The translations under genes were made by a program, and so were the position numbers. DNA of 64,000 bases, taken from the NCBI RefSeq assembly GCF_000013865.1, contig NC_007948.1, positions 3,906,001 to 3,970,000 on the forward strand, read 5' to 3'. The notes under the pieces are model-generated. The model was given only the letters and a program-made list of their open reading frames with translations. It had not been told where the DNA came from and did not search any database. Source of the stretch: Polaromonas sp. JS666 (GTDB lineage: Bacteria; Pseudomonadota; Gammaproteobacteria; Burkholderiales; Burkholderiaceae_C). This document shows positions 28,794 to 64,000 of this stretch, piece after piece; within the stretch, counting starts at the first letter, position 1, and each line of letters starts with the position of its first letter.

Positions 28794-28843
28794 TGTAACG
28801 CGCCACATGGTTTGATGAAGCACGACAAATGGTTTGATGTGGC
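28794..28843. repeat. Prophage left terminus with candidate transposase-binding repeats
   Basis: Starts TGTAACG at the presumed junction. Direct repeats ATGGTTTGATG at 28807-28817 and 28829-28839 have a 22-bp period, and inverted GCCACAT / ATGTGGC arms enclose them. Tandem 22-bp transposase sites are typical of Mu-type ends. The exact terminal base cannot be proven without the other end. Confidence 0.6.
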
Positions 28844-29072
28844 AGACCATCTGGCGCTCGGTTCTCGCCCCAAGTTATCCCCAGTGCTGTGGATAAGTAA
28901 CCCGGCCGGGGGCTGGTAAACCGCCCTTGAAGGGCCATTGAGCCCCAAAAAACGACCTCTCAGAACGCCCCAGGAGCTGCGATCTTACGCTGGCCAAGGC
29001 ACTGGGCAGGGGGGACCGGCTCGCGGCTCCTAGGGCCTTGGCGCTTGGCCCGCATGCCGGTGGGCCTGCTGG

Positions 29073-29894
29073 TCATCCCCCAGGCTTGAAATTGGTAATC
29101 AGCAGCTCGCCCTTGGCCTGCCTGCCCTCCCCAGATCGGCCCAGGGTGTAGCTGGTGACCAACCGTTTGATGGACAGGCCCTTGAAGGCCTGGCGCATCT
29201 CCGGGATGTCGTTCACGCTGACGGCCGCCTTGCCCTTCATGGTGCGCAGCAGCTCGGCCATCCGGTCGTACTGCTCAAGGCCGAAATCGACACCGTAACC
29301 CTCGGTTCCCCAGTAGGGCGGATCGAGGTAAAACAAGCTGTGGGGCCGGTCGTATTTTTCAACGCATTTGGCCCAGTCCAGGTGCTCAATAAACACCTGG
29401 TGTAGGCGCAGGTGGACGGCGCTTAAATCCTCTTCCATTCTGAGCAGGTTGATGCTGGCCTTGGCCGTGGTGGCGGTGCCGAAGCTCTGGCCCTTCACCT
29501 TGCCACCGAAAGCGCACTTTTGCAGGTAGTAGAACCGCGCAGCTCTCTGTATATCGGTCAGCGTGGCCGGTGGCGTCTCCTGCAGCCAATTGAACAACTC
29601 GCGGCTGTTGAGCGCCCACCTGAATTGCCGGATGAACTCGTCAAGATGGTGGGTCACTACCCGGTAAAGCCGCACCAGGTCGCTGTTGACATCATTCAGC
29701 ACCTCGACCCTGACCGGGGGCTTCATGAAGAACAGCGCTGCGGCTCCGCAGAAAGGCTCGACGTAGCAGCTGTGGTCAGGAAACATGGGCAGGATGAATT
29801 GCGCCAGGCGACGCTTGCCACCTACCCACGGCACCAAGGGCGAGGCCTGAATATGCATTGCATTGTTAATGAGCGCTCGGGGCTCCCGTTTTGT
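29073..29894 (-). CDS. Dam-type DNA adenine N6-methyltransferase (phage)
   Basis: 273 residues. Motif I, the AdoMet-binding FCGAAALFF, follows PLVPWVGGKRRLAQFILPMF, the Dam-family start. Catalytic motif IV is DPPYWGTEGYG. It sits at the prophage end in the position of Mu mom and overlaps the upstream Com-like gene, so it probably modifies phage DNA against host restriction. The ATG at 29894 (GGAG six bases upstream) is preferred to 29909. Sequence specificity cannot be predicted. Confidence 0.9.
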   Translation of the reverse strand, partial: TKREPRALINNAMHIQASPLVPWVGGKRRLAQFILPMFPDHSCYVEPFCGAAALFFMKPPVRVEVLNDVNSDLVRLYRVVTHHLDEFIRQFRWALNSRELFNWLQETPPATLTDIQRAARFYYLQKCAFGGKVKGQSFGTATTAKASINLLRMEEDLSAVHLRLHQVFIEHLDWAKCVEKYDRPHSLFYLDPPYWGTEGYGVDFGLEQYDRMAELLRTMKGKAAVSVNDIPEMRQAFKGLSIKRLVTSYTLGRSGEGRQAKGELLITNFKPGG

Positions 29895-30090
29895 CATCTT
29901 CAGCTCCATTTGCAGATGACGCTCGGGGGCGTGCTTGGGTGGTGCTCTGGCTGCTGTGATCAGCGGCTCTGGCCCTCAAAATGTTCAAGGCCCCGCATCT
30001 GGGACACTTGATCTCTAACCTGGTGTAGCAGCCTGCGCCCAACTTGCGCTGGCAGCTGCCGCACCGAATCTCTTCTAACTTCTCTTGCAT
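29866..30090 (-). CDS. Com-like zinc-finger translational regulator
   Basis: 74 residues. The N-terminal zinc finger (IRCGSCQRKLGAG then LEIKCPRCGALNILRA: CxxC...CxxC) matches Mu Com, which binds mom mRNA and opens its translation start. The tail is unstructured and polar. Its 3' end overlaps the methyltransferase gene start by about 30-45 bases, the same overlapping arrangement as com/mom in Mu. The ATG at 30090 was chosen because the finger follows directly. Confidence 0.85.
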   Translation of the reverse strand: MQEKLEEIRCGSCQRKLGAGCYTRLEIKCPRCGALNILRARAADHSSQSTTQARPRASSANGAEDDKTGAPSAH

Positions 30091-30192
30091 GGCATCACCG
30101 TTATGATCACCCGGCCTAGCTAGGCGGCAGGGTCTTCGGTCAATACCGTGCGTGTTCACGGTGGAGGCGGGGGCTTGAAGTGTTAGCGCACC

Positions 30193-30366
30193 TCAGGCCT
30201 TCGCCCTGTCTTTTTTTCTAGTTTCCCGGTCCGGCTCCTTGCCGCCCTTCAGCGCAATCCACAAAGTCACAAACGGAACCAGGTTGATGCACCAGCGACG
30301 GTTGAACGGCGACCAATGCGCGCCGATCCACAGTGCGCCAGGGTTGATCAACACGCCAACCTCCAC
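30193..30366 (-). CDS. Small phage membrane protein, start uncertain
   Basis: The reading frame gives a hydrophobic protein: EVGVLINPGALWIGAHWSPF then INLVPFVTLWIALKGG and a basic tail ending at 30193. Similar small proteins of Mu-like phages start a few residues earlier (before WLICVEVG), but there is no ATG in frame. GTG 30366 is used here and a TTG exists at 30480. It is tightly packed behind the cysteine-peptidase-like gene. Function unknown. Confidence 0.55.
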   Translation of the reverse strand: MEVGVLINPGALWIGAHWSPFNRRWCINLVPFVTLWIALKGGKEPDRETRKKDRAKA

Positions 30367-30371
30367 GCAGA

Positions 30372-30863
30372 TCAGCCACTCACCGATGCGGCTTGCAGGC
30401 GCTTGGCGGTCATGGCATCTTTGATGCCCATGATGGCCAGCTCCAGATCGGCGGGCGATGGAACCTCTTTGTTGAGCCAAAATCTCGCCGGCCAGCCGTT
30501 CGCAGCCAGGTCATTGGCCACCATCTCCGAGCAGATCACACCCGACGCATTCCGGGTGCTCTTGCCGACCAGGTGATACGCCCAGCGCACGCTGAACAGC
30601 AGGTAGTCCCAAACACCATAGACCGCCCCATCGGTATCGAGCTGGTGATCCAGGTATTCAGCCGTCACGCTGCAGCCAGCGGGCAAGTCGGCCAGGATGA
30701 CGTTTGCTTCTGCGTACACCGGCCAATTGCGACGCCGGCGGATCAGGTTCATGTCCCAGAACTTGATGCCATCCGTGAAGCCCACGTGATAGCACGTCGA
30801 GCCGGTGAAGAACTTGGTCAGGGCCGAGCTGAACGGCTTGCCGTAGACAAAGACGATTTTCAT
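30372..30863 (-). CDS. Permuted NlpC/P60-like (YiiX-type) cysteine peptidase candidate
   Basis: 163 residues. A His appears in STCYHVGFTDGIKFWDM and a Cys in NASGVICSEMVANDLAANG, in the order (His before Cys) of circularly permuted papain-like proteins of the YiiX/LRAT class. No signal peptide. It lies between tail-fibre assembly and the com/methylase end. It could cleave peptidoglycan peptides or modify host lipids/proteins; it is not needed for the recognised Mu-type virion genes. Confidence 0.65.
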   Translation of the reverse strand: MKIVFVYGKPFSSALTKFFTGSTCYHVGFTDGIKFWDMNLIRRRRNWPVYAEANVILADLPAGCSVTAEYLDHQLDTDGAVYGVWDYLLFSVRWAYHLVGKSTRNASGVICSEMVANDLAANGWPARFWLNKEVPSPADLELAIMGIKDAMTAKRLQAASVSG

Positions 30864-30871
30864 GACAGCCC

Positions 30872-31543
30872 TCAGATGCTGAAAGTCACAGATTCCATCG
30901 CCAGCTTGCCAGCCGCCTCGGCATCGGCGACAGCCAGCGCGGTGGCTGCAGCGCGGATAGCGGCCTTGGCGCGAAGCCGCGCCGCTCCACGATGGTCAAA
31001 GGCCACCGCGTTTGCTTCCGTCCACTTTTGCACCACAACCTGCGCGGCCTGCTCATCGGTCAGGCCGTAGCCTTCGGCAAGAGCCTTCACACGCTCTGGT
31101 GCGGGCTTGGTCATGTCCACCAGCCAGGCCTTCGCGGCCATGTAGGCGGCGTCATATTCGGAAGCGATCGCGCCGTTCGGAACGGTGCGACTGTAGAGAA
31201 CTTCAAAGTGTGCATCGATGGCCGCTTGGGCGGCTTCCTTCAGCGCGTCGAGGGTTGGCGCTGGAGGTGTGATCAGAACTGGGGCCCCATTAGCGTCGGC
31301 CTCGATACGCTTGCCTTGGGTTTGCCCTTCGAGAAGAGCGGCGTGCTGCTCATCGGTGATCTCGACGGCATCGGGCGGAATCTTGCAATCGGGGTTGTTG
31401 ATTTCAATGGTCGGCGCGATGGCGGAGGGGTCCGGCATACCGTCAATTAGAGGCGGCACCCACGCTGCGTCGGCTATGACCAGCGTGCGAGACCCGTGGA
31501 GGTCGGCGGAGTAAAACCCGCCTGTCAATTTTGAATAGAACAT
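30872..31543 (-). CDS. Tail fibre assembly protein-like
   Basis: 223 residues. The start MFYSKLTGGFYSADLHG and the stretch PDAVEITDEQHAALLEGQTQ are characteristic of the Caudovirales tail fibre assembly family. An Ala-rich helical C-terminus follows. It is directly downstream of the tail fibre gene (8-bp gap). Chaperones of this class help fibre trimers fold and attach. The ATG at 31543 was selected over 31648 by family alignment. Confidence 0.85.
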   Translation of the reverse strand: MFYSKLTGGFYSADLHGSRTLVIADAAWVPPLIDGMPDPSAIAPTIEINNPDCKIPPDAVEITDEQHAALLEGQTQGKRIEADANGAPVLITPPAPTLDALKEAAQAAIDAHFEVLYSRTVPNGAIASEYDAAYMAAKAWLVDMTKPAPERVKALAEGYGLTDEQAAQVVVQKWTEANAVAFDHRGAARLRAKAAIRAAATALAVADAEAAGKLAMESVTFSI

Positions 31544-31551
31544 GATTTTCC

Positions 31552-32448
31552 TTATTTGCCAATGGCAGCCCAATAATTTGAATTTGATGCAATCGAAGCG
31601 CGCCCATTGAATCCGGTCAGCAACTGGGTATCGGACCAAGCAGCGCAAGTGGCCGTCGTACCCCCTGCAGAGCCGAATGTGAGGCTGTATAAAGCGGTGG
31701 GGAAAGTTAATGGGAAGGTCACCGCAACCGGATTACCGGGCGTCGCGTTGCCGGTAAAAACACCCCACTGAATGATCAGACCGCTGGGCAGCTTCTGGTA
31801 GCCACTCGCTGCAACGCTTGCGGCGCCGCCGCTGGAAAGACCGTAATACGATCCACCGCCCGTAGCGCATAAATCGAGGAAATCTCCCACAGTGCGCAGA
31901 ATGACGGACGATGAGCTGGTGCCGCCCGCGAAGTTGTTCGTGCCGACAATCACATTCGAACCGGAGGTTACAACCGTCACAGCATTGGCTGATGAGTCCG
32001 ACTTGTATATTTTCAGCGCGGCACCAGACTGCGTAACGAGCGGCAATGTGATGGTGCGGGGCCCTCCGCTGGCGTCGACAAAAATTACCTTACCGAAGTC
32101 GGCGGCGGTCAGAACGGTGTTCGCTGCGACCGATATGGCGTCTTGATAATTTCCAAGCGCTCGCTGCACGAAAGCCGTGGTCGCGGCCTTCGTAGTGTTG
32201 TCAAACTGCGCGGGCGTGGTGAACACACCGGCCGCACGCAGCGCCAGAAGCATCTGGTTGCGCGTCGCTATCGCAGGCACCTGCCCTCCGGCCTCGATGA
32301 TGGCCAAAATCTCTTCCTGCACGCCGTTGCAAAATTCCGCGTTGAAGTCGGTAGGTGTAACGCCGAGTCCGAGATTGGCGTTCTTCCAGCCATGCTTGCC
32401 GGCCCCGAAGAGGTCAACAGCTTTTGATGCTGTGTTAATGCGATCCAT
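31552..32448 (-). CDS. Phage tail fibre protein
   Basis: 298 residues. The N-terminal part attaches to the baseplate (MDRINTASKAVDLFGAGKHG, FNAEFCNGVQEEILAIIEAGG). The middle is beta-rich and Gly/Ser/Thr-rich. The C-terminal receptor-binding domain (YQKLPSGLIIQWGVFTGN to FNGRASIASNSNYWAAIGK) resembles putative tail-fibre gp53-like C-termini. Likely determines host adsorption; short for a tail fibre. It follows the gp48-like gene in baseplate order. Confidence 0.87.
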   Translation of the reverse strand: MDRINTASKAVDLFGAGKHGWKNANLGLGVTPTDFNAEFCNGVQEEILAIIEAGGQVPAIATRNQMLLALRAAGVFTTPAQFDNTTKAATTAFVQRALGNYQDAISVAANTVLTAADFGKVIFVDASGGPRTITLPLVTQSGAALKIYKSDSSANAVTVVTSGSNVIVGTNNFAGGTSSSSVILRTVGDFLDLCATGGGSYYGLSSGGAASVAASGYQKLPSGLIIQWGVFTGNATPGNPVAVTFPLTFPTALYSLTFGSAGGTTATCAAWSDTQLLTGFNGRASIASNSNYWAAIGK

Positions 32449-32460
32449 TGGTTAGGCTCC

Positions 32461-33057
32461 TTATGCCGTGTAGGCGAAAAATACGTTGGTGTGTGCCGGC
32501 TTGCGCTCAGTGATCGGACAAACGATCAGCGAGGGCGAGGAAAGGTCCAGCGGGTCATTGCAGTCATCGTTGCAGTTCATCGGGCGGGCATTGACGGCCG
32601 CGTGTGGAATGTTCACCCGCCAGCTGAACCGGTCCTCTGGGCTGTACAGCGCGTCATTGCAGTCGTCATTGCAGTTCATCGGCCGGAACTCGGTGATCGT
32701 GCAGCCCGGCTCACCGAGCAGCTCCGCCAGACCAAGGAAATAGGAGGCTGATTGACCACCTTGCTCAACCAGGCGCTGCTGCGCCAGGCGGCGGCGCTCA
32801 ATGAGCGACAAGGCCTGATCAGCCAGGCAGTCGTCTGGCAAGCCGAGTACTCGCTCCCAATCGGTCAGCAACTCAGTGGTCGACCGAACATCCGTCTCCT
32901 CCACCAGGTCGTCAAAGCGCGCATCAAGACGCGCCAGCTCTTCCGCCAGGCCCTGCAGCAGCTTGGTAGTGACCGAGTCAGGTTCACGCGACCACGCCGG
33001 CCCCTGCGGCAGCAGTGCCTGCAGGTGAGCGACGTACTGCGAAACCGTCAGAGCCAT
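32461..33057 (-). CDS. Mu gp48-like baseplate protein (YmfQ/DUF2313)
   Basis: 198 residues. N-terminal motif YVAHLQALLPQGPAWSREPD, then LTDWERVLGLPDDC and ERRRLAQQRLVEQGGQSASYF are diagnostic for the YmfQ family, the P2 gpI equivalent in Mu-type baseplates. The C-terminal part has a 33-residue internal repeat in which RPMNCNDDCND occurs twice. It overlaps the gp47-like gene by 10 bp. Confidence 0.88.
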   Translation of the reverse strand: MALTVSQYVAHLQALLPQGPAWSREPDSVTTKLLQGLAEELARLDARFDDLVEETDVRSTTELLTDWERVLGLPDDCLADQALSLIERRRLAQQRLVEQGGQSASYFLGLAELLGEPGCTITEFRPMNCNDDCNDALYSPEDRFSWRVNIPHAAVNARPMNCNDDCNDPLDLSSPSLIVCPITERKPAHTNVFFAYTA

Positions 33058-34103
33058 GTGATGGCTCCGAAGGTGGTTATCTGCCCAGTGGTCAACACCA
33101 CGTCGGCTGCTGGCACGGTCATCACATAGTTGGTTTCACCGGCCGCCAGGCTGATGGCCTCGCGGATGTGGCTCAGCAACAGCGTGCCGCCTGGCACAGC
33201 CTCGCGCCGGATCAGATCGGTCAGCTCGGCCTGCACCGCGTTCTTGACGAGGAGCGTGTTGGGCGTGAGCGTGATGGTGAAGTTCAGCGGCACAGCCACT
33301 GGCGCCACCACCGTAACGGCGGCAGTAACAGGCCGGCGCGCATCAATATAGGCCTGCACTGCGGCCACCTCGGCGGCGTCGGGTATGCCGGTCACCGTGT
33401 CGTCATAGCGCATGAACCGGACCGTGACTGAGCCGGGGCCCAGCTCCTGGGGATAGCACCAGGCATCGGTAACGCCGGCCACTGCCTTGGCCCAGTTCAC
33501 ATAGTCAAAATCTGCGCCACCCTGGGGTGTCTCCTGGATGCGCGCCAGCAGGCGCTCTCGCAGGCTGGCGTCGTCTTCGGTGTCGCTGCCATTGACCAAG
33601 CCACCAGCAGCCACCACAGCGCCCGTATTGACGCCCGCAACCGGGGTAACGAAGGTGAGAGCGCTGACCGCCGCCGTATTGCCTGCAGCGCCCGCCACAG
33701 ACGCCGTGAGCTGCCCCGTGGCCGTGCCGGCCACCAGAGTGGCATCGGCATCCACGGTGAACTCCGCGCCGTCTGCGCGGCTCAGCACAGTGCCAGCCGG
33801 AACGGTCGAGCCCGTGAGCCCGGTAAAGGTCACCGGCCCGATGGCACGGGCAGCGGCTTTCCTGTTTACGCCCCAGATGCTGGCCCAGCGGCTCAAGTAC
33901 TCCGCGTCGGCCGTGTCAATGATCACCTGGCGCGACAGGTAGTCCAGCACGCCATAAAGACCGTGCACGGCACCGGCCAGCATGCGCGCGATGACGTTGA
34001 GGTTGCTGCGCCGCAGCCGGGCATCGGTGCCAGGTAGGCGCGTCTCGATATCGGCGATGTTGCGCTCGATGATCTGCAGCAAACTCGGGCGTGTGAATGC
34101 CAT
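33048..34103 (-). CDS. Baseplate J-like protein (Mu gp47)
   Basis: 351 residues. RPSLLQIIERNIADIETRLP and SRWASIWGVNRKAAARAIG at the N-terminus; GSTVPAGTVLSRADGAEFTVD and PQGGADFDYVNWAKAVAGVTDAW mark the baseplate J family. Forms the wedge of the contractile-tail baseplate. It is adjacent to gp46 and gp48 homologues as in Mu. Confidence 0.93.
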   Translation of the reverse strand: MAFTRPSLLQIIERNIADIETRLPGTDARLRRSNLNVIARMLAGAVHGLYGVLDYLSRQVIIDTADAEYLSRWASIWGVNRKAAARAIGPVTFTGLTGSTVPAGTVLSRADGAEFTVDADATLVAGTATGQLTASVAGAAGNTAAVSALTFVTPVAGVNTGAVVAAGGLVNGSDTEDDASLRERLLARIQETPQGGADFDYVNWAKAVAGVTDAWCYPQELGPGSVTVRFMRYDDTVTGIPDAAEVAAVQAYIDARRPVTAAVTVVAPVAVPLNFTITLTPNTLLVKNAVQAELTDLIRREAVPGGTLLLSHIREAISLAAGETNYVMTVPAADVVLTTGQITTFGAITWL

Positions 34104-34571
34104 TTAATTGCCCTTCCAGAATGCTTCAAACTGATATTTATTGACTGGCTTGCCGGCGCGCACGATCTCCACCGTCAGCAACAGAACGCCTTGCCGGCCA
34201 GCCTGCCACTCGGCCTTGACGTTGATGGCCCGCGCCAGGCCATCGTCAATCAGCCACTGCAGCGCCTCGGCCGCGAAGTCGCGGGCCTTGAGCAGCGTTG
34301 CGGTGGTTTGCTTTTCACGAGCCAGCAGCCAGAGGCGCGAGCCAATGCGGTCGCCCTCGACGTCGGCATAAGAGTCGCCCCACCAGCCCCGGCGATCACT
34401 GCCGGCAGCGCTGGCCGGCAAGTCGTCAGCATCGGCGCGGCGGTCGGTGAAGAGGCTGATGATCACGGACGTCTGTAGGCCCTCGTCCGTCGCCAGGCCG
34501 GGGCTACCCACGGCCCAGTCGAACCTGAAAGAGCCAACGTCCTGGATGAGCTGGGTTGCGATGTCGCTCAT
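34104..34571 (-). CDS. Mu gp46-like baseplate protein
   Basis: 155 residues. LQTSVIISLFTDRRADADD, RRGWWGDSYADVEGDRIGSR and LLAREKQTTATLLKARDFA are family motifs of Mu gp46 (P2 gpW / T4 gp25-like). It connects tube or sheath to the baseplate wedge. It overlaps gp45 by 4 bp and abuts gp47 with no gap. Confidence 0.9.
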   Translation of the reverse strand: MSDIATQLIQDVGSFRFDWAVGSPGLATDEGLQTSVIISLFTDRRADADDLPASAAGSDRRGWWGDSYADVEGDRIGSRLWLLAREKQTTATLLKARDFAAEALQWLIDDGLARAINVKAEWQAGRQGVLLLTVEIVRAGKPVNKYQFEAFWKGN

Positions 34572-35149
34572 ACCGGCACCCCCGACAGACCACCGCCAGG
34601 CGTAACGCCACTTTGCCTGTGCGTGCTCAGCGATATGCCGGCACCCACCACGTCGCCGGTAGCCGTGATCGACCCGGCAACGGCCGCAGAGCCCGTGACG
34701 TTCAAAGAGCCACCGGCGGTGATATTGCCCGCCACCTGCAGGTTGCCACTCATGGTGACCAACGGGCTCGTGATCACAACCTTGGTGGCATGCTTGATCT
34801 CGATCTCGCCCTGTTTGATATGGATGTAGTCACCCCACTTGGTGTAAACAGCCACCTCTCCGGGCAGCAAGCCCAGCTTGCGATAGCGGCGGTCGTCCAC
34901 CGCCACCAGAATGATGTGGTCGCGGTTGCCCTGCACCGACAGCGCCACGCCCTCGGCACCGGCCTCTGGCACGCTGGTAAAGCCGTAGTTCTGAAAGCGC
35001 TCGACCTGGTCGCGCACTTCGCCCTCCAGCAGGCTGACCTGCGCGGCCTGCACCTTGGTGTTGTCGTTGACCAGCTCCAGCACGGCACGGCCCACCATCA
35101 GCATTACGCGGCGCTGCATCGGGGCCATCATGCGTTGCAGGGCGTTCAT
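34568..35149 (-). CDS. Baseplate assembly protein V / spike (Mu gp45)
   Basis: 193 residues. The OB-like domain (VERFQNYGFTSVPEAGAEGV, DDRRYRKLGLLPGEVAVYTK) is followed by a beta-helical needle region with repeated Val/Ile strands (IKQGEIEIKHATKVVITSP, NLQVAGNITAGGSLNVTG). This is the central membrane-piercing spike of contractile tails. The ATG at 35149 overlaps the previous stop (AAATGA). Confidence 0.9.
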   Translation of the reverse strand: MNALQRMMAPMQRRVMLMVGRAVLELVNDNTKVQAAQVSLLEGEVRDQVERFQNYGFTSVPEAGAEGVALSVQGNRDHIILVAVDDRRYRKLGLLPGEVAVYTKWGDYIHIKQGEIEIKHATKVVITSPLVTMSGNLQVAGNITAGGSLNVTGSAAVAGSITATGDVVGAGISLSTHRQSGVTPGGGLSGVPV

Positions 35150-36228
35150 TTGGCCGCGTCCTTGCTGCTGGCCTTGGCCGTGTCCCAAAAGAAGCCGGGG
35201 CCTTGACCCTTGGTGTCTTTCAGTGGCAACAGCTTGTAGGCGTCAGGGCTGGTCAGCGTCAGCTCGGTGATGGAGCCGCCAGCGTCGAGCTGGTAGCCCA
35301 CCTTCTTGATGAGCAGCTCCGCATCCAGGCGCAGCCAGGCGTCCGTGATGTGCACCAGGGTGTTGGGCTCCCACAAGCCGTCAACATGGCTCCAGCCTTG
35401 CACCTTGCAGGTGATGTCGTTGCTGCGGGCAGCGCGCACGTTGGCCTCCCACAGCACACGGTCTTTCAACGATGCGGCAATGTCTTGCCCCTCGCTCACC
35501 ACCACCAGCGGGCGGTAACGCTTGATGGTCGGGTCATTGGCCACCGCCTTGATCTGCGATGCAGCCTTGCCGCTGAAAAAGTCACCGCCTGCCGCCTGGC
35601 CCTTCATGATGTAGGTGCTGAAGCGGTCGCGGTAGTTGAGCGTGGCATCGGCCTCCAGCAGGTTCTGGCCCAGCATCAGCGGCGTGCCTACGCGGGTTGT
35701 ACCGGCGCGCGTGATGACCAGGTTGCCCTTGCCGTCGTTCGTCAGCAGCACGGCCCGAATGCGCGCCATGCGCTCAATGGCCTCAAACACCGTTTCACCC
35801 TGCTGCAGCGCAAAGTTGGGGAAGGCCTTGCCCGTGCTCACCAGGGTAATAACCTCAATGCCAAAAGGCTTGCACAGGTCGGCGGCAATTTGCTCCAGCT
35901 TGCGGCCAGACCATTGGCCCGCAGGCTTCAAGGCGCTGCAGTCCACCAGGTCGGCGGTTTTGTCGCGGCCGCGCACAGCGATGTCGTGGCTGTTGGCGCT
36001 GTAGCTCAGCGTCATCTCGTCCACATAGCCGGTTATCACGGTCTGGCCATCCAGCAACACGGTGCATTCATCGCCCGGCGCAATCTCGCGGGCCGCCATC
36101 TGCTCGGGCCACAGTTCAGTCACGCCCAGATCGAACATGCCGGCGCATTGCTCCATGCCGCGCTCCAGGCGCATGCTTTTCCAACCGCCGTAGATGGCAC
36201 CGTTGACCTTGAGCTGAATGTCAGGCAT
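35146..36228 (-). CDS. Baseplate hub protein (Mu gp44 / P)
   Basis: 360 residues. The hub fold is indicated by MPDIQLKVNGAIYGGWKSMR, SANSHDIAVRGRDKTADLVD, the motif ADLCKPFGIEV and TYIMKGQAAGG, as in the Mu P / P2 gpD class that forms the ring holding the spike. The ATG at 36228 was chosen (family N-terminus). It overlaps gp43 by 8 bp. Confidence 0.9.
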   Translation of the reverse strand: MPDIQLKVNGAIYGGWKSMRLERGMEQCAGMFDLGVTELWPEQMAAREIAPGDECTVLLDGQTVITGYVDEMTLSYSANSHDIAVRGRDKTADLVDCSALKPAGQWSGRKLEQIAADLCKPFGIEVITLVSTGKAFPNFALQQGETVFEAIERMARIRAVLLTNDGKGNLVITRAGTTRVGTPLMLGQNLLEADATLNYRDRFSTYIMKGQAAGGDFFSGKAASQIKAVANDPTIKRYRPLVVVSEGQDIAASLKDRVLWEANVRAARSNDITCKVQGWSHVDGLWEPNTLVHITDAWLRLDAELLIKKVGYQLDAGGSITELTLTSPDAYKLLPLKDTKGQGPGFFWDTAKASSKDAAK

Positions 36229-37468
36229 CCGCCAGCACCTCCAGCGCCTGGCCACCGGGCACAAAGCCGGGGTGGCGCACTTTGTTGCGCGTGACGATCT
36301 CAGCCTCGCGGCCGGCATCCTCATACAGCCCATAGGCCAGCACCAGCGCCGGCTGGGTTGCCTCGGGCGTCACCGTCACCGTTCGGGCCAAGTCAGCGCC
36401 GCGCAGTGTAATGTCCCGAATCATGGCCGCCCGAACGGTGATGAGCTTGTCGTACACCGTGTCGCTGCTCGAAACCTCGGCCAGGGCATCCAGCTGCTCG
36501 GCCAGCTCATCGCGCAGCGCCACCGCATCGCCACTGCCCACATACTGCTGCCGGCCGCTCACGGTAATGCCAGACTGAAAAGCACCGCCAAACTCAATAC
36601 GGCTCGCGCTGCGCGCCGCTTCAACCGCGGCCGTGCGCTGCACCAGGGCAATCACGGCGTTCTGGTTGTCCGCCTGCTGCTGGCGGCTTGGCGTGGTGGT
36701 GGGCACCAGCTGGGCATCGTCGCCAAAGTCAAAAAGGCCGCGCAGCATGGCCACCGAGTCGCCAGGCAAGGCAACCAGGTCCACCAGGCTGCCGATCTGG
36801 CCAGACAGGGTGCTGGCCAGGCTGTCGGGCGCTTGCATCAGCGCGAGCAAGTCAGTGCGGGCATCGCCCAGGGCACCGGCAAACGTCGCCTTGGCATCGG
36901 CCAGCGTGGGCAAAGAGCCGGCCACGGCCTCCAGGGCATCCAGCGCACCGCCCAGCAGCTCTGCGGCGGCGCTGGCCACGTATTCGGGAAAACCGTCAAT
37001 GCTGAAGGTCTCGGCAAAGTCAGCATCAATCTCGGCGATCGCGTCGTCGGCCGACAGCTCAACCAGCGCGGCCGTGTCAGCGTCTGAGGACGGGAACGTC
37101 AGCTCACCGGACTCCACGCAGGTGATGGTGAAGCGCGCCATGCCGCCCTCGGCCGTGCTCTCGCGCAGCTTCAGGTCGCCCACAATGCTGACGGTCTTTT
37201 CGCCCTGGTAGGGGTGCACCAGCCTGCCGGGGCCTGGCTCCGCCAGTGCGTCCATCAGCGCGTCGCGCGCATCCATGTAATCAGCACCCAGCACATAGGC
37301 TTCCAGCGTGAAGCTGCGAGCCTTGAGGCCGAGGTCTTCTACAAAGGGGATGTCGCGCAGCGGGTATTCATGCACCACGCTACGGCGGCCAAAGCCCAGC
37401 TCCGCGCTGTCCACAAAGAAGGGAACGCCGCGAAAGCTCGCCAGCTGAAGTTCGTCTAACCAGCTCAT
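36221..37468 (-). CDS. DNA circularisation / tail protein N (Mu gp43)
   Basis: 415 residues. The N-terminal domain (LQLASFRGVPFFVDSAELGF, RRSVVHEYPLRDIPFVEDLG, ADYMDARDALMDALAEPGPG, LVHPYQGE) is the DNA-circularisation N family. The long helical C-terminus has another conserved segment, VRHPGFVPGGQALEVLA. In Mu, gpN belongs to the tail tip and is linked to circularising injected DNA. It overlaps the tape measure gene by 4 bp. Confidence 0.9.
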   Translation of the reverse strand: MSWLDELQLASFRGVPFFVDSAELGFGRRSVVHEYPLRDIPFVEDLGLKARSFTLEAYVLGADYMDARDALMDALAEPGPGRLVHPYQGEKTVSIVGDLKLRESTAEGGMARFTITCVESGELTFPSSDADTAALVELSADDAIAEIDADFAETFSIDGFPEYVASAAAELLGGALDALEAVAGSLPTLADAKATFAGALGDARTDLLALMQAPDSLASTLSGQIGSLVDLVALPGDSVAMLRGLFDFGDDAQLVPTTTPSRQQQADNQNAVIALVQRTAAVEAARSASRIEFGGAFQSGITVSGRQQYVGSGDAVALRDELAEQLDALAEVSSSDTVYDKLITVRAAMIRDITLRGADLARTVTVTPEATQPALVLAYGLYEDAGREAEIVTRNKVRHPGFVPGGQALEVLADA

Positions 37469-39087
37469 GGCGTCGCCATCACCATGCCGCTGTAAACGTC
37501 AAAGTCCACAGCCGGGTTGTTCTTCTTGACCTCTGCCACGCGGGCGCGGCCGTCCTGGTCGATCTGCAGCTTGATCGTGCCGCCCACGTCAGCCTTTTGC
37601 ATCATGTTGCGGGTGGGCAGGGCGGAGGGCACGGGCGGCGCAATGGCCAGGGGCGCATCGGCAACGCCCGTGGCGTTCCCCATCGCGTCATAGGTCACCG
37701 AGCCGTTCATCTCACCGCTGAACAGGTTTTTGACGGTCTGGCCCACCTTGGCGGCCAGCTCGACCACCGTCATGATCTTGTTCATGATCCAGTCGTAAAC
37801 CGTGCTGAAAGCCGATTTAACGCCGTCCCACAGGCCGATGAAGAACTGCTTGATAGGTGCCCAGTTCTTGTAGATCAGGAACACGATGCCCGCGATGGCT
37901 GCAACAGCCAACAGAATCCAGCCCACGGGCGTCGACATAAGCGCAACGCCCAGGCTCCACACCGTGGGGATCAAGGCGATGATGGCCTTGCCGAGGCCAA
38001 AGATGCCAACAGCCAGCTTCAAGCCAAGCAGCGCGGCAAGGCCGATGATCACGTTCTCCCAACCACCAAAGACCTGCGCCACGGTGTCAGCAGCACCGAC
38101 AATCATCACCAGGGCCCCGGTGATCTGGCCCAGCGACTTCAAGAAACCGGGCAGCGCGTTGACGATCTCGCCAATCATCTTGCCCAGGCGCTGGCCCCAC
38201 TCTTCGCGGTTGGCCGAGTTGATCTCCGTGAACTTCTTCACCATTGCGTCCAGTGCCGGCAGCGCGTTTTCCGCAATGGCCGACATGACGCCAAAAATCG
38301 AGAACTTCAGGCGGTCGAAGTTGTCATTGAAGTCAGCCATTGCCTCAGCGGTGGATCCACCGACCACCGCGCCAACCTTGTCGGCTTCCTTGTAGAAGGT
38401 CTTCAGGCCAGCGCTGCCCAGGTCAAGCACCTGTTTCAGCTCGGCACCGCCACGGCCCATCAGGGCCTTCATCACGGCAATCTTTTTCTCGGCGTTCTGG
38501 CCGGCGTCGCCCACAGACTGGAACTTGTCGGCCACCTTTTCAAACACCTGGGCCACGTTCATCTTCTTGAGCTGGTCAAGCGGGATGCCCACGCGGGCGA
38601 ACCAGGTGGCGGCCTCCTTGCTGCCATTGATCGCCTCCACCATGTTCTGGCTCAAGAACTGCAGCGCCTGGCCCATTTCTTCCTGGTTGCTGCCATTGAG
38701 CTGCGCCGCGTAGCCCATACGCTGGTATGCCTCCACGCCAATGCCCAGCTTCTTGCTGACATCCACCGCGTGGTCAGTTGCGTCAATCGTCCGCTTCAGC
38801 GCAAAAAACACACCGCCCGCAGCCAGGCTGACGGCACCAAAGCCCTGCGCAATGCCCTGGGCGCTGCCCTTCAAGGTATCGAAGCGCTCACGCACCACAC
38901 CCATCTGGTTCTGCAGCCGGTTGCCCATGAAGCGCCCAAAGCGAAACGCCGTCTGGTCAGACAGCGCGCCGATGCGCTTGATCGGCTCAGCCACCTTGTC
39001 AATGGCACGGCCAACGCGGCGAAGAGGCTCTGTCGCTTTGTCCAGAGCCTCTATCACGAATGCCAGCTTGAGATTGCCTGTGCTCAT
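37465..39087 (-). CDS. Tape measure protein (Mu gp42)
   Basis: 540 residues. TMP core motifs LKLAFVIEALDKATEPLRRV and LGIGVEAYQRMGYAAQLNGS then LQFLSQNMVEAI; a central hydrophobic region with several helices (ALVMIVGAADTVAQVFGGWE, VGWILLAVAAIAGIVFLIYK). It sets tail length and is ejected with the DNA. It is shorter than many siphophage TMPs, consistent with a Mu-sized tail. It is preceded by the frameshifted chaperone pair. Confidence 0.92.
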   Translation of the reverse strand: MSTGNLKLAFVIEALDKATEPLRRVGRAIDKVAEPIKRIGALSDQTAFRFGRFMGNRLQNQMGVVRERFDTLKGSAQGIAQGFGAVSLAAGGVFFALKRTIDATDHAVDVSKKLGIGVEAYQRMGYAAQLNGSNQEEMGQALQFLSQNMVEAINGSKEAATWFARVGIPLDQLKKMNVAQVFEKVADKFQSVGDAGQNAEKKIAVMKALMGRGGAELKQVLDLGSAGLKTFYKEADKVGAVVGGSTAEAMADFNDNFDRLKFSIFGVMSAIAENALPALDAMVKKFTEINSANREEWGQRLGKMIGEIVNALPGFLKSLGQITGALVMIVGAADTVAQVFGGWENVIIGLAALLGLKLAVGIFGLGKAIIALIPTVWSLGVALMSTPVGWILLAVAAIAGIVFLIYKNWAPIKQFFIGLWDGVKSAFSTVYDWIMNKIMTVVELAAKVGQTVKNLFSGEMNGSVTYDAMGNATGVADAPLAIAPPVPSALPTRNMMQKADVGGTIKLQIDQDGRARVAEVKKNNPAVDFDVYSGMVMATP

Positions 39088-39203
39088 TTATTCAAGTGTT
39101 TGTTAATTCGGCTTACCTGCTGGTGCCACTCCATCAGCTCGTCGATGTCCATCGCCATCAGCTCTCTGTTTGACCAGTGAAACGTGAAGGCGACCTCGGC
39201 CAT
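39084..39203 (-). CDS. Tail assembly chaperone second frame (Mu gp41' / GpE-like)
   Basis: 39 codons from an ATG that overlaps the gp41 stop (TGATG). The product MAEVAFTFHWSNRELMAMDI... matches GpE-type extensions. The frame is also open upstream and reads CPPNWRDV just before this ATG, which is how the frameshifted fusion usually looks. The likely product is therefore mainly a -1 extension of gp41 made at the G-run around 39227-39233, not a free protein. The stop overlaps the tape measure ATG. Confidence 0.7.
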   Translation of the reverse strand: MAEVAFTFHWSNRELMAMDIDELMEWHQQVSRINKHLNK

Positions 39204-39493
39204 CACGTCACGCCAATTTGGAGGGCACCCCCGATAAAACCCGCCACCAGCACGCCGACCTCCGTGACGTCTTCACCGTCGAGCTGGTCAAAGGTGCTCG
39301 GCGGAATGCCGGCACTGCGCGAAATCATCACGGCCATCATTTCGCCTTCGCCCTTGGACTTGGCATTGCCGATGGCGCGGATGTCCGCACCTTTGAAGCG
39401 CTTGAGCTGCAGCTCGGTGATGGTCTCAATGACATCACCGTCCTTGTTTTTCAGCTCGACCGGGTGCTTGAGGGTGTGAGTGATGGGCTCCAT
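39203..39493 (-). CDS. Tail assembly chaperone (Mu gp41)
   Basis: 96 residues. HPVELKNKDGDVIETITELQ and LKRFKGADIRAIGNAK match the phage tail assembly (E/gp41) family. Between tail tube and tape measure, as expected. The ATG at 39493 with AGGAG upstream is preferred to GTG 39499. Near the 3' end the codons GGG GGT offer a slippery stretch leading into the second frame (see separate entry). Confidence 0.88.
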   Translation of the reverse strand: MEPITHTLKHPVELKNKDGDVIETITELQLKRFKGADIRAIGNAKSKGEGEMMAVMISRSAGIPPSTFDQLDGEDVTEVGVLVAGFIGGALQIGVT

Positions 39494-39495
39494 GC

Positions 39496-39858
39496 TCACA
39501 TCTCCTCAGCAGGCTGGCCCGCAAACTTCAGGGGCACCTTGCCGCCGTCGCCATCGGTGGCCACGGGCGGCTCGGTCAAGAACGCGTCACGCACCACAAA
39601 GGTCTGGCCGGTGTCGCATTCAAAGGTGATGGTCGCGTCCACAATGGCGGCATACTTTTTGAGGCTCGTGCCTGGCGCGACCGAAATCTCGCACTCCACC
39701 GTCGCCTCCTTGGGCTGCTCGGAATAGCCGTGGATGGAGTTGTTCCCCTTGATGGGGCTCCGGGTTACACCGCCGATGTCGATTTTTGCGCCGGGCAGCG
39801 TTTCGAGCAGCTCGCCGTTGGCCTTGATGAAGGCCTTTCCTAGTCTCATTCCACTCAT
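39496..39858 (-). CDS. Tail tube protein (Mu gp40 / M)
   Basis: 120 residues. LGKAFIKANGELLETLPGAK and GGVTRSPIKGNNSIHGYSEQ then EATVECEISVAPGTSLKKYA fit Mu gpM-type tube proteins. Polymerises into the inner tube within the sheath. Sits between sheath and chaperone genes. Confidence 0.9.
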   Translation of the reverse strand: MSGMRLGKAFIKANGELLETLPGAKIDIGGVTRSPIKGNNSIHGYSEQPKEATVECEISVAPGTSLKKYAAIVDATITFECDTGQTFVVRDAFLTEPPVATDGDGGKVPLKFAGQPAEEM

Positions 39859-39885
39859 ACATTTACTCCTGGTATTTAGGGGTTG

Positions 39886-41346: not shown

Positions 41347-41352
41347 TTTGGA

Positions 41353-41547
41353 TTACTCCTTCTTTGAAGCAGGTTTGGCGGCAGCTTGCGCGGGGGCAAC
41401 GCCCTCGCTCACGTCGCCGTCATTCAGGCGGCGTATCCAGTAGGTGCCTTGCTCGACCGTGTCGCCCTCGGGCGGTAGCGGCTGGCCAGTGGCCGGGTTG
41501 ACCACGCGAAGGCCTGGGGCCGGGATGAGGTAGATTTTTTCGGGCAT
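41353..41547 (-). CDS. Mu gp38-like small protein (DUF2635)
   Basis: 64 residues: MPEKIYLIPAPGLRVVNPAT, PLPPEGDTVEQGTYWIRRLN is the DUF2635 signature. In Mu the equivalent lies directly before the sheath gene, as here (6-bp gap). Role in tail assembly not established. A Lys/Ala-rich tail closes it. Confidence 0.88.
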   Translation of the reverse strand: MPEKIYLIPAPGLRVVNPATGQPLPPEGDTVEQGTYWIRRLNDGDVSEGVAPAQAAAKPASKKE

Positions 41548-41575
41548 GGTGTTGTCCTGGAAGGGTTGGAGGGAA

Positions 41576-41878
41576 TCAGGCCGAGAGCTTTTCGCGCAGC
41601 AGGTAGCCTTCAAGCAGCCACACCTTGTCGCGCGCGTTTTCACGGGCGATTTTTCGGCCCATCTCTTCGTTGAAGTTCTCCAGGCTGACCGCTGCGCTTT
41701 CGCCGGTAGCCGTGAAGCCATTGCGAAGCGTCAAGGCGCAGACCGTCAGCGTGGTGCCCGGAAAGCGGTGGTAGGCCTCGCCCACAATCACTTTGTCGAT
41801 GTCTGCAGGGGTCAACCGCGGGGCGGTTGGTTTCAGGTCCTGCAGGCTCTTTTCAAGCTGCTGTTCGTTGGTGCTCAT
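41576..41878 (-). CDS. N4 gp49 / Sf6 gp66-family phage protein
   Basis: 100 residues. DIDKVIVGEAYHRFPGTTLT and VCALTLRNGFTATGESAAVS then FNEEMGRKIARENARDKVW are diagnostic for the Gp49/Gp66 family, small proteins of unknown function in many tailed phages. An insertion relative to Mu between gp37 and gp38. Confidence 0.85.
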   Translation of the reverse strand: MSTNEQQLEKSLQDLKPTAPRLTPADIDKVIVGEAYHRFPGTTLTVCALTLRNGFTATGESAAVSLENFNEEMGRKIARENARDKVWLLEGYLLREKLSA

Positions 41879-41886
41879 GTTGGTCC

Positions 41887-42495: not shown

Positions 42496-42497
42496 GG

Positions 42498-57119: not shown

Positions 57120-57322
57120 GCACAGAAAACGAAGCCAAACGCGCCAAGGTAGCGCTCATTCTTGCAAAGAAGCTCGATGCTGCTGCCGACGCGATGGATA
57201 TGTTTGTATATGCCGGCATTGACTGCGGTCAACCCTATCCCGAGGCTGACGATCAGCGGCGGACTCTCGCAGCCGCCATGCGTGAGTATTCCGGCTACCT
57301 TGAGTCGGTGTTCCCAAAATGA
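57116..57322 (+). CDS. Hypothetical small early protein
   Basis: 68 residues, helical: ENEAKRAKVALILAKKLDAA and ADAMDMFVYAGIDCGQPYPE. Unknown function; overlaps GemA start by 4 bp. Confidence 0.58.
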   Translation: MSTENEAKRAKVALILAKKLDAAADAMDMFVYAGIDCGQPYPEADDQRRTLAAAMREYSGYLESVFPK

Positions 57323-57774
57323 GCAACCTCGTCCCCAACCACCGCAACCGCGAGCTGGCGATTATTCACATTGCCAAGCAGCAGCTGAACATGGACGATG
57401 AGAGCTACCGCGCCATGCTCTGGGCCTGCGGTCGCGTCAAGTCATCCAAAGACCTGGACTACCCCGGCCGGGTGCGGGTGATTGACCACCTGAAGAAATG
57501 CGGTTTTCAAGTCGATCAAACCAAGGGCAAGGCCGCACACCCCGGCCGCCCGCACAACATGAATAGCGAAGCGCGCGGCCCGCAGCTCAGCAAGGTCGAG
57601 GCGCTTCTGACCGACGCCGGCCGCGAGTGGGCCTATGCCGACGGCATGGCCAGGCGCATGTTCAAGGTCGAGCGCGTGGCGCTGTGCCACGAGGGCCAGC
57701 TGCAAAAGATCATCGCCGCGCTCACCTACGACCAGAAGCGTCGGGCCAAGCTGGCTGCTGGAGCTGCAGCATGA
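57319..57774 (+). CDS. gemA: GemA-like regulatory protein (Mu gp16, DUF1018)
   Basis: 151 residues. Family motifs RELAIIHIAKQQLNMDDESY, RAMLWACGRVKSSKDLDYPG and RVRVIDHLKKCGFQ at the N-terminus; LSKVEALLTDAGREWAYADG and RMFKVERVALCHEGQLQKII follow. GemA/Mor control host functions and early transcription in Mu; here it also precedes mor. Confidence 0.92.
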   Translation: MSNLVPNHRNRELAIIHIAKQQLNMDDESYRAMLWACGRVKSSKDLDYPGRVRVIDHLKKCGFQVDQTKGKAAHPGRPHNMNSEARGPQLSKVEALLTDAGREWAYADGMARRMFKVERVALCHEGQLQKIIAALTYDQKRRAKLAAGAAA

Positions 57775-59952: not shown

Positions 59953-60564
59953 ATGGCGCGTTCAATCAATCTCCTCGTTATTCACTGCGCGGCAACGCCG
60001 AGCGGTAAACCCCTCCAGCAAGGCAAGCCGGGCCAGCCCGGTTACCTCAATGCCCCCCAGGTCATCAACGCCTGGCACGCGGCACGCGGCTTCAAGCGCG
60101 ACCCGGCTGCATGCCGGGCTTTCAATTCCCACCTGCCGAGCATCGGCTACCACTACGTCATCGACCTGACCGGCGAGGTCTGGACAGGCCGCGCCCACAG
60201 CGAGGTCGGCGCGCACGCGCTGAACTACAACGCCAACAGCCTGGGCATCTGCCTGGTCGGCGGAGCAGAGCGCGAAGGCCGCTACACGCCCAAGCAGTGG
60301 GAGTCGCTGCAGAAGGTGGTGTCCATGCTCTGCAACCAGTACGTGCTGCCCACCCGCCCGCCACAGCGCAACTGGCTGGGCGGCGCGAACTGGGCCATAC
60401 ACGGCGGCGTTTGCGGGCACCGCGACCTCAGCCCCGACAAAGACGGCAACGGCCTGGTGGAGGCCTTTGAGTGGCTCAAAACCTGCCCCGGCTTCAACGT
60501 GAGCGACTGGCTCAGCACGGCCATGACGCCTGATCCCAAGAACGTTTTCAAGGAGACCGTATGA
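59953..60564 (+). CDS. N-acetylmuramoyl-L-alanine amidase (endolysin)
   Basis: 203 residues, amidase_2/PGRP fold. Zinc ligand His11 (LLVIHCAATPSG), then GYHYVIDLTGEVWTGRAHSE, a Tyr/His region and the distal His-Arg-Asp with Cys in CGHRDLSPDKDGNG and KTCPGFN. It cuts peptidoglycan stem peptides during host lysis. No signal peptide, so it needs the holin. Confidence 0.92.
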   Translation: MARSINLLVIHCAATPSGKPLQQGKPGQPGYLNAPQVINAWHAARGFKRDPAACRAFNSHLPSIGYHYVIDLTGEVWTGRAHSEVGAHALNYNANSLGICLVGGAEREGRYTPKQWESLQKVVSMLCNQYVLPTRPPQRNWLGGANWAIHGGVCGHRDLSPDKDGNGLVEAFEWLKTCPGFNVSDWLSTAMTPDPKNVFKETV

Positions 60565-61403: not shown

Positions 61404-61407
61404 GCCG

Positions 61408-61979: not shown

Positions 61980-62301
61980 TGCCAACCCAGTTAACAGCGT
62001 GCTTCACAAGGCCAAGATTCGGCGCGAGCAAATCCGCTGGTTCTTGCTGACCGCCCTCAACGTGGCGCGGCCCGTGGGTATGTACACCGAGGCGCTGCTG
62101 CCCATCGTGCAGGCCACCTATACGGATGCAACGCACCAGGAAGTGCGCCGCGAGCTGGACTACCTGGAAGAGCGCACGCTGGTCAGCATCAAGCGCGACG
62201 GCATGGACCGCTGGTTTGCCGAGCTGGCCCGCTTTGGGGTGGATGTGGTTGAGTACACGGTCGACTGCGAGCCCGGCATTGCACGGCCTCGCGCCTACTG
62301 A
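61972..62301 (+). CDS. Winged-helix protein upstream of terminase (Mu gp26-like position)
   Basis: 109 residues from GTG 61972. REQIRWFLLTALNVARPVGM, YTEALLPIVQATYTDATHQE then VRRELDYLEERTLVSIKRDG fit a winged helix. Conserved in position before the small terminase in Mu-like phages. Possible role in DNA packaging recognition or regulation. Confidence 0.7.
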   Translation: MSDANPVNSVLHKAKIRREQIRWFLLTALNVARPVGMYTEALLPIVQATYTDATHQEVRRELDYLEERTLVSIKRDGMDRWFAELARFGVDVVEYTVDCEPGIARPRAY

Positions 62302-62303
62302 TC

Positions 62304-62825
62304 ATGACGCAACGCAGCAAGGTAGTCACCCTGCCAGAGGCCACCCGCGCCGAGCTGGACCGCCGCCTGATCACCGAGGGCTTTCGCGGCTATGACGAGC
62401 TGGAGCTATGGCTGCGGGAGCTGGGCTACGAGATCGGCAAAAGCAGCATCCACCGCTACGGCACCAAGCTGGAGCAGCGGCTCGACCAGCTCAAGCGCGC
62501 CACCGACCAGGCCAAGGCCCTGGTGGCCGCAGCGCCCGACGATGCAGGCGACATGAGCCAGGCCGTGCTGCGCCTGATGCAGGAAAAGATTTTCTCGGCG
62601 CTGATGGAGATGGAGGTTGACCCCGACGAGCAGTCGCTGGGCGGCCTGGCCAAGGCGCTGGCCCCGCTGGTGCGTGCCAATATCGCGCAGCAGAAGTTTG
62701 CCAGCGAGGTCAAGGAAAAAGCCCGCAGCGCGGCCGAGGCGGTGGACAAGCTGGCGCGCAAGGGCGGCTTGACCGACGACACGGTGGACGCCATCCGTCG
62801 CCAGATTTTGGGGATTGCAGCATGA
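62304..62825 (+). CDS. Small terminase subunit (Mu gp27, DUF3486)
   Basis: 173 residues. LPEATRAELDRRLITEGFRG, YDELELWLRELGYEIGKSSI then HRYGTKLEQRLDQLKRATDQ is the DUF3486 signature; a long helical C-terminus follows. Recognises phage DNA ends for headful packaging together with the large subunit. Confidence 0.92.
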   Translation: MTQRSKVVTLPEATRAELDRRLITEGFRGYDELELWLRELGYEIGKSSIHRYGTKLEQRLDQLKRATDQAKALVAAAPDDAGDMSQAVLRLMQEKIFSALMEMEVDPDEQSLGGLAKALAPLVRANIAQQKFASEVKEKARSAAEAVDKLARKGGLTDDTVDAIRRQILGIAA

Positions 62826-62992
62826 CGCTAACTCTGGTTCTCGCCTGGTGGATGTTGGTGCCTGCGGTGTGGACGGCGATATTCATCGCGTGGATGTGGA
62901 TTGTCTGTGAAACCGTCGAGGATATTGGCATCCTTTGCATCCCTTGGGTCATAGGGCTCATTTTGGTGAGCCTCGTTCGGGCTTTATCTTGA
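62822..62992 (+). CDS. Small two-helix membrane protein
   Basis: 56 residues: MTLTLVLAWWMLVPAVWTAI, FIAWMWIVCETVEDIGILCI, PWVIGLILVSLVRALS. Overlaps the small terminase stop (ATGA) and the large terminase start (TTGA). Two hydrophobic segments; possibly an accessory or lysis-inhibition protein. No family known. Confidence 0.6.
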   Translation: MTLTLVLAWWMLVPAVWTAIFIAWMWIVCETVEDIGILCIPWVIGLILVSLVRALS

Positions 62993-64000
62993 GCACCACG
63001 CCCCCGCTCCTTCAAAGCGACGCGAACAGTACGGACGCGCCGCCACCTGTCCTGTTGCCGTATCAACAGCGCTGGGTCGCCGACGATTCGCAATTCAAGA
63101 TCGGCGAGAAGTCGCGCCGGATTGGTTTTACCTGGGGCGAGGCGTCTGACGATGTATTGATTGCTGCCAAAGAAGGCGGCACGAACGTTTTCTACATCGG
63201 CCCGACTCAGGACATGGCGCTCGAATACATCGAAGCCTGCGCCATGTGGGCGCGGGTTTTCAACTTCGCGGCCAGCCAGGTTCAGGAAGGCATCTTCGAC
63301 GACGAAGATAAGGATATAAAAACCTACAAAATCGACTTCCCGGCCAGCGGCCGCCGCATCCTCGCGCTCAGCTCGCGTCCCACCAACCTGCGCGGCAAGC
63401 AGGGCGTGATCGTCATTGACGAAGCGGCCTTTCATCCCGATTTGCAAGGGCTTTTAAAGGCCGCTATGGCCATGTTGATCTGGGGCGACAAAGTCCGGGT
63501 CTTTTCCAGCCACAACGGGCTGGACAGCCCGTTCAATGAACTGATCATCGACGTCCGGTCGGGCCGACGCAAGGGCGTGGTCCACCGCGTGACGTTCATG
63601 GAGGCCGTCGCCGAGGGCCTCTATAAGCGCGTTTGCATGCGCCGCCGAATTCCCTGGACTGCCGAGGGCGAGAAGGAGTGGGTCTCCGACGTGTATGGCT
63701 TTTACGGCGACGGTGCGACCGAAGAGCTGGACGTGGTGCCATCGCAAAGCGGTGGTGCCTACCTGACGATGGCCTTGATCGAACGGCAAATGAGCGCCGA
63801 GACCCCGCTGATTCGCGGCAAGTGGAAGTCCGAGTTCAACATCCAGCCCGACTGGGAGCGCGAGGCCGAGATACAGCGCTGGTGTGAAGAACACCTGGAG
63901 CCAGTGCTCATGGCGCTGCCCAAGCACCTGTGGCACAGCTTCGGCGAAGACTTCGGCCGCGTGGGCGACCTGACCGTGATGATCGTGCTGCAGGAGCAGC
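62989..64000 (+). CDS. Large terminase subunit (Mu gp28), 3' end outside window
   Basis: Frame open to the window end (337 codons). TTG start overlapping the previous stop: STTPPLLQSDANSTD. The ATPase region is KSRRIGFTWGEASDD (Walker A variant of Mu gp28), Walker B GVIVIDEAAFHPDL, and motif III-like RVFSSHNGLDSPFNELI. The nuclease domain lies beyond (SFGEDFGRVGDLTVMIV is its start). Packages DNA headfully with host flanks. Confidence 0.93.
   Translation, partial: MSTTPPLLQSDANSTDAPPPVLLPYQQRWVADDSQFKIGEKSRRIGFTWGEASDDVLIAAKEGGTNVFYIGPTQDMALEYIEACAMWARVFNFAASQVQEGIFDDEDKDIKTYKIDFPASGRRILALSSRPTNLRGKQGVIVIDEAAFHPDLQGLLKAAMAMLIWGDKVRVFSSHNGLDSPFNELIIDVRSGRRKGVVHRVTFMEAVAEGLYKRVCMRRRIPWTAEGEKEWVSDVYGFYGDGATEELDVVPSQSGGAYLTMALIERQMSAETPLIRGKWKSEFNIQPDWEREAEIQRWCEEHLEPVLMALPKHLWHSFGEDFGRVGDLTVMIVLQEQ

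Follow-up and report, generated by a model that had tools for sequence, protein, structure and literature searches.

A Mu-like prophage of Polaromonas sp. JS666 with packaging and capsid–tail genes on two divergent arms

The genome of the transposable phage Mu is ordered from its left (L) end as early genes (c, A, B and following), packaging genes (lysis to G) and capsid and tail genes (I to com), up to its right (R) end. Gene order is regarded as under strong constraint in transposable phages (PMC8705779, section 3.8), and D3112 is described with one-way late genes and the transposase near the L end (PMC5977238). Variants of the order are reported in these sources as well. BcepMu carries genes 1–13, including the transposase, on the bottom strand and genes 17–52 on the top strand (PMC2771037), and B3 is described as an early-operon inversion with packaging, capsid and tail genes together (PMC5977238). 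The head module of Burkholderia phage KS10 (2008) is divided, and was called unique by its authors (PMC2628397). In the Leptospira TG1 prophages (2021), TerS-TerL-Portal stand apart from the other structural genes, on arms that diverge around the regulators (PMC8705779). Here we analysed a 64,000-nucleotide stretch of Polaromonas sp. JS666 (the window; positions 3,906,001–3,970,000 of contig 1, NC_007948.1, in a 5.9 Mb assembly of three contigs) and found an element that is very probably a complete Mu-like transposable prophage, of a lineage carrying an inversion of the whole left half of the genome, from c to G, between the L end and the boundary of genes G and I.

Gene map, ends and recurrence of the prophage

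The prophage spans window positions 28794–67957 (39,164 bp), with its right end outside the window. Its ends are TG...CA, exact at 28794 and 67957, and a 5-bp target duplication, CGAAA, flanks it on both sides. A flavin reductase gene, named from the sequence alone without a family scan, is split by the prophage, with the C-terminal half just left of 28794 and the other half right of 67957. Through PHROG and Pfam scans, we found that the left arm (29073–45868) lies wholly on the − strand and carries methylase, Com, fibre, baseplate, tape measure, tube, sheath, Gp37-like, Gp36-like, capsid, scaffold or cement, and protease genes. Read from the R end, the map runs from com to I leftward, continues with c leftward, and then from A and B to G rightward, up to the L end. 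The features of Mu-like membership are present, namely a DDE transposase with Mu domains and its B partner, Mu-type terminase, portal, gpF and gpG, and a contractile tail set; a canonical gene order with a single late direction is absent. Gene order varies within the Mu-like group (KS10, B3, BcepMu), and the phage is therefore filed as Mu-like with a variant order.

The original prediction, drawn from the letters of the window, had described one intact phage with two divergent arms around a central control region, a break between gpG and the protease (I) operon, and a transposase in mid-genome. The scans and the two ends agree with it: the protease is on the left arm, gpG is on the right arm, and the transposase frame starts 19,191 bp from R and 19,972 bp from L. 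It also foresaw what lies further to the right, where we found the rest of terL, portal, gpF and gpG, all on the + strand, followed by the phage end and the missing flavin reductase half. A hidden Markov model (HMM) scan of the flanks (28.8 kb before the prophage and 26 kb after it) detected no second structural gene set, and its sole match was one weak B-like protein (25 bits); a second copy of protease, capsid and tail genes right of 64000, named beforehand as evidence against the prediction, was thus not found in the 26 kb right of the prophage. A tandem or hybrid prophage was rejected on this flank scan and on the relatives with the same layout.

We searched transposase A against 299 genomes of the family, including the window's own, and 85 matched at an E value of 0.001. 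Besides the own genome, six matches reached at least 280 bits, and the other 78 stayed at or below 46 bits. The layout is split in three of the six (working numbers G228, G238 and G011); in G164, G243 and G207 an early block diverges from a one-way late block. Both arms were found in five records other than the window, G228, G011 and, from IMG/VR, G299, G300 and G301, which makes six with the window. Four split genomes, the window and three relatives, have both TG..CA ends and a 5-bp duplication, each at a different site (CGAAA, GTAGG, GCTTG and CGTCC). The transposase frame starts 19,805 and 19,587 bp from R and L in G228, and 20,947 and 20,880 bp in G011. The layout is shared by relatives down to about 50% transposase identity. 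Because the same map recurs in related bacteria, this is a real phage lineage. One relative, G238 (L046/L047), has both ends and the GCTTG duplication, lacks everything from within B to gpG, and is a natural deletion derivative of 26.6 kb.

The types of the two ends were read from the spacing of transposase-site-like repeats. In the Mu record, the distances from the first L site to the others are 105 and 145 bp, and R1 and R2 are 22 bp apart. In the window, the com-side end (28794–28842, + strand, starting TGTAACGCGCC...) has two such repeats at offsets 11 and 33, with the 22-bp spacing of Mu R1/R2, and the gpG-side end (terminus 67957, outside the window) has them at 11, 127 and 161. The ends of G011 are alike, with 11 and 33 on the com side and 11, 128 and 161 on the other. 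In G228 and G238, the first com-side site is followed after 22 bp by a second, and the opposite end has sites at 11/128 and 11/139, respectively. As a control, we scored 20 ends, 8 tail-side and 12 other-side, against 300 shuffles. The tail-side ends were those of the window, G228, G238, G011, G300, canonical G307, KS10 and Curvibacter phage TJ1. The others were the gpG side of the window, G228 and G011, the far side of G238, the A side of canonical L065, L142, L168, L173, G305, L138 and L154, and the gpF side of KS10. The results showed that the terminal 14 bases are repeated at offset 33 in 8/8 tail-side ends (11–14 of 14 matches, with 0/300 shuffles as good), and that this repeat is absent (1–7 of 14) from 12/12 ends on the non-tail side. 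A further site at 115–172 was present in nine of these 12, at a level reached by at most 10 of 300 shuffles. By the spacing of these predicted sites, the Com/tail end belongs to the R type of Mu and the gpG end to the L type, suggesting that the com/tail block kept its R-type end and that the inversion beside L took in everything from repressor to gpG. We suggest that prophage ends be annotated by the rule that the tail block marks R.

Trees and alternative histories

One inversion of the segment from the repressor to gpG, with the I-to-Com block staying at the R end, is the simplest history of this map. A scan of genome contigs with the single transposase gave no matches and was repeated with a transposase alignment. 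The alignment returned 56 genome-contig loci, and with the best 80 of 155 viral-contig loci and eight earlier viral loci, three of them recurring, 141 distinct loci were scored by HMM. A transposase open reading frame (ORF) of at least 450 amino acids was present in 140 of them, of which 82 were not judgeable, 34 were canonical, 19 were split, and 5 had a terminase or portal gene on the opposite strand upstream. In 30 of the 34, 'canonical' stands only for a stretch of at least 8 kb upstream without a detected late gene; the other four were set by hand from complete records. After exact duplicates were removed and the window was added, 17 split transposases were left. The label is thin for L092 and L132, where protease is the only upstream evidence, and for L064, where it is limited to baseplate and tape-measure genes. 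L135, labelled split by rule, is doubtful and was not counted as split evidence, its upstream genes including a tyrosine integrase and a different tape measure gene. The L135 contig is an unusual mosaic in its own right, with a Mu-type transposase beside these genes.

In a tree of 61 labelled transposases (L107 and L111 being excluded as unclear), 13 of the 17 split transposases formed one clade together with one canonical transposase, L124, with a support of 96 in the Shimodaira–Hasegawa-like approximate likelihood ratio test (SH-aLRT). The window terL (62935–64512) pairs with canonical G304 (66–68% identity, vs 54–56% to G228, G011 and G300), and packaging modules seem, from such sequence pairings, to move between layouts.

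Several observations weigh against the reading as an inverted left half. L124, which is G304, has canonical order inside the main split clade, and four of the 17 split-labelled transposases (L064, L092, L135 and L147) fall outside it. Single-gene trees (sheath, gp47, gpH = Mu Gp36-like, terL, portal, gpF and B) disagree in places. In G301 a gpG-like gene is on the tail arm, and its break is thus not identical to that of the window. The further site is weak in three of the 12 non-tail ends, G228 (74/300) and G011 (37/300), both split, and L138 (95/300). Most of the canonical A-side ends come from a motif scan in which the R pattern suited L142 and L168 better than the L pattern did; only spacing separates ends of this type, and the 20-end control does so by spacing. 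No member of the Mor/C family was recognised by Pfam in the right-arm ORFs covered, which did not include every small ORF.

Separate inversions may instead have produced the layout more than once, since the L end and the G/I boundary would be favoured breakpoints. We consider this a serious possibility, at somewhat less than an even chance; it is compatible with an inversion of the left half in each single lineage. The transposase tree joins split-labelled L147 (G301) as a pair with canonical L083 (SH-aLRT 97); L147 also has another capsid and protease type besides the gpG-like gene on its tail arm. KS10 and TJ1 are distant in transposase background and have a nearby break, between gpF and protease; the G/I boundary is near the central gyrase site of Mu. 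The split label needs five changes on the tree, three of them forced by well-supported branches. However, exchange of early or late modules between phages mimics several origins from one inversion, the tree is a quick search, and the outlying L092 and L135 have the thin or doubtful layout evidence described above. One origin with module exchange and several origins both fit these data.

A second alternative, which we regard as improbable, is that the capsid/tail block (I to com) was excised, inverted and re-inserted left of the repressor with the phage ends in place, much as the original prediction had it in describing that block as inverted and moved. Such a transfer yields the same relative gene map, but it requires a transfer plus an inversion, and under it the end beside com should be of L type and that beside gpG of R type; 4/4 split genomes with both ends show the reverse. 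The block is still on an R-type end, and it is the segment from repressor to gpG that appears turned; one inversion explains the map, and no block transfer is needed. An assembly error, such as the join near 46 kb that the original prediction had named as a danger, or a recent inversion in this one lysogen, can be set aside as next to impossible: no observation was found in its favour, five other records show both arms, the layout is shared down to about 50% transposase identity, and contig L005, whose transposase is 84% identical to the window's, crosses the 46-kb junction.

Control region and the two arms

If the left half was inverted, each late block would still work because the break lies between transcription units. 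One trans-acting late activator could fire both arms, and two-arm late expression would require one promoter ahead of the protease and another ahead of the lysis genes. With its Mu-type N-terminal domain, the transposase would be expected to bind the enhancer/operator. In Mu the enhancer lies just right of the repressor (PMC5977238). The corresponding position in the window would be at c/ner, around 47.45 kb, which is not near L and leaves about 19 kb to R and 20 kb to L. The 64-bp divergent gap between c and ner (47416–47479) is the likely operator/enhancer region; it contains no repeated 10-mer, so the enhancer is placed here by inference.

The gpG frame of Mu ends at 48.6% of the Mu genome, and with a flip of half the genome the inner breakpoint stays near the genome midpoint. 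Mutations of the central gyrase site of Mu were mapped near genes G and I, and a central position is best for its function (PMC10052514, PMC3820752). A gyrase-type site has been named as a possible spot for non-homologous recombination (PMC8705779, section 3.8). The break in the lineage of the window may reflect gyrase cleavage.

In the control region, a family-less ORF (46093–46761, −) lies between protease and repressor; it matches only itself in an ORF set of 25 genomes and is possibly a lysogenic accessory gene. The c-like repressor (46783–47415, −; phrog_2328, 2.3e-8, with HTH_19 below its cut-off) and the Ner-like helix-turn-helix protein (47480–47734, +; HTH_3, 3.6e-5) are named from weak helix-turn-helix matches. 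Transposase A (48222–50540, +), near the genome midpoint, has the Mu N-terminal DNA-binding (PF02316), rve core (PF00665) and Mu C-terminal (PF09299) domains and matches phrog_310. It is followed on the + strand by transposition protein B, an AAA ATPase (50605–51330; phrog_296, PF13401), a GemA-like protein (57319–57774; PF06252), an endolysin/amidase-like lysis protein (59953–60564; phrog_822), the terminase small subunit, Mu Gp27 (62304–62825; PF11985, phrog_426), and the terminase large subunit (62935–64512, past the window end at 64000). Outside the window, the + strand continues with portal (64514–66127; Portal_Mu, 2.5e-115), gpF (66124–66900; Phage_Mu_F) and gpG (66890–67429; Phage_tail_S). 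Between gpG and the L end, also outside the window, the motif AAGGTGGGGC(A/T) occurs in seven copies, five on the + and two on the − strand, at 67503–67847 (L002 9503–9847); elsewhere in the 78 kb searched with at most one mismatch it occurs only at 37739 and 9032. The cluster could be a set of binding sites.

The left arm, all on the − strand, starts with a D12-class N6-adenine DNA methyltransferase (29073–29909; PF02086, 1.7e-28; phrog_56), which occupies the position of Mu mom and belongs to a different family, and a Com-like zinc ribbon protein (29866–30159; PF10122 Zn_ribbon_Com, 7.7e-12). Tail fibre assembly, fibre, baseplate wedge and hub genes follow at 30872–36333 (phrog_188, 4209, 203, 6, 180 and 177), then a second baseplate hub gene, tape measure, tail tube and tail sheath at 36221–41346 (phrog_184, tape-measure phrogs, phrog_185 and phrog_165). 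At 41887–45868 lie Mu Gp37-like and Mu Gp36-like genes, the major capsid protein, a scaffold or cement protein, and the head maturation protease in the position of Mu I (PF08873, PF07030, PF09956 and PF03864; phrog_490, 195, 1005, 673 and 976). By Pfam, 41887–42495 and 42498–42920 are named Mu Gp37 and Mu Gp36, and not gpJ and gpH. The description of phrog_490 would make 41887–42495 (202 amino acids) a portal, and this was set aside, the frame being Mu Gp37 by PF08873 (1.5e-45) and the true portal being on the right arm; the phrog_490 description 'portal protein' may mislead prophage annotation. In the window and G299 the D12 methylase is at the R-side end; G228, G011 and G300 carry it behind gpG, at the L-side end, so that this cargo gene occupies opposite phage termini among split relatives.

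Comparison with known transposable phages

The kinds of early, packaging, capsid and tail modules present in Mu, D3112, HS6 and RcapMu are also those of the window phage, which shares with Mu the TG ends, the spacing of L and R sites and the Mu-type transposase domains. Unlike it, Mu, HS6 and RcapMu have all late genes found running one way and the transposase near the L end. Among the 60 of 102 terL matches and the 60 of 62 protease matches listed, 28 phage records were common to both, and the two genes lay on the same strand in 28/28. We annotated 13 isolated phage records by HMM, two of them over 40,000 bases only. Mu, HS6, RR1-B, RcapMu and AFS-2018a were canonical in the genes found, early genes were reversed in Lsp-JY19 and Bhz63, and the partial maps of IPK, QH16, HXX_Dennis and GXNNB6 had all found genes on one strand. 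The map of the window was seen in 0/13. Its exact gene order was not found in the literature searched, outside which most subscription papers fell, and the part of PMC7354579 consulted holds nothing on it.

KS10 and TJ1 resemble the window phage in a head module split around the control region, with the break between gpF and protease, and in a tail block on an R-type end. They differ in an early block directed toward the protease, a packaging block turned alone and a gpG-like gene on the tail arm; in the window the early block points away from the protease, and early and packaging blocks are turned together. TJ1 (L213/L228-L229) itself has the KS10 map and an R-type tail-side end. The Leptospira TG1 prophages, whose transposition proteins are closest to B3-like phages, are likened to the window phage by published description and not by sequence. 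As described, B3 and BcepMu also have early genes on the strand opposite to the late genes and a control region away from the end, but their packaging, capsid and tail genes are together. A map with the early block alone reversed is not that of the window, in which lysis to gpG run with A, away from the protease.

A broader reading, which we offer tentatively as less likely than not, is that the Mu-type maps seen here are inversions within an L-side segment, with capsid and tail fixed to R and with the inner breakpoint of split forms at or near the central gyrase-site position. The four maps would then be Mu (early, packaging and tail all forward), BcepMu/B3 (early reversed), KS10/TJ1 (packaging reversed, early forward) and the window phage (packaging and early reversed). 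In the same reading, phages of the window type keep the enhancer-binding domain and transpose with the enhancer about 19 kb away from either end, so that an enhancer near L may not be essential. Apart from this reading, the lineage of the window shows that an inversion of half the genome can be maintained through deep divergence, given a break that lies between late operons and close to the genome centre. Such phages raise the question of how transposition would work if the enhancer is so far from both ends. They offer natural experiments on whether transposition needs its enhancer close to the L end, and on whether the central gyrase site must adjoin the G and I genes or merely lie at the midpoint.

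The uniqueness implied in the original prediction was too strong. The BcepMu and B3 maps already place the transposase at a distance from the L end, and a split head module is itself known from KS10 (2008) and Leptospira TG1 (2021), so the exact order described here is a new version of a type of rearrangement that a few phages were known to have.

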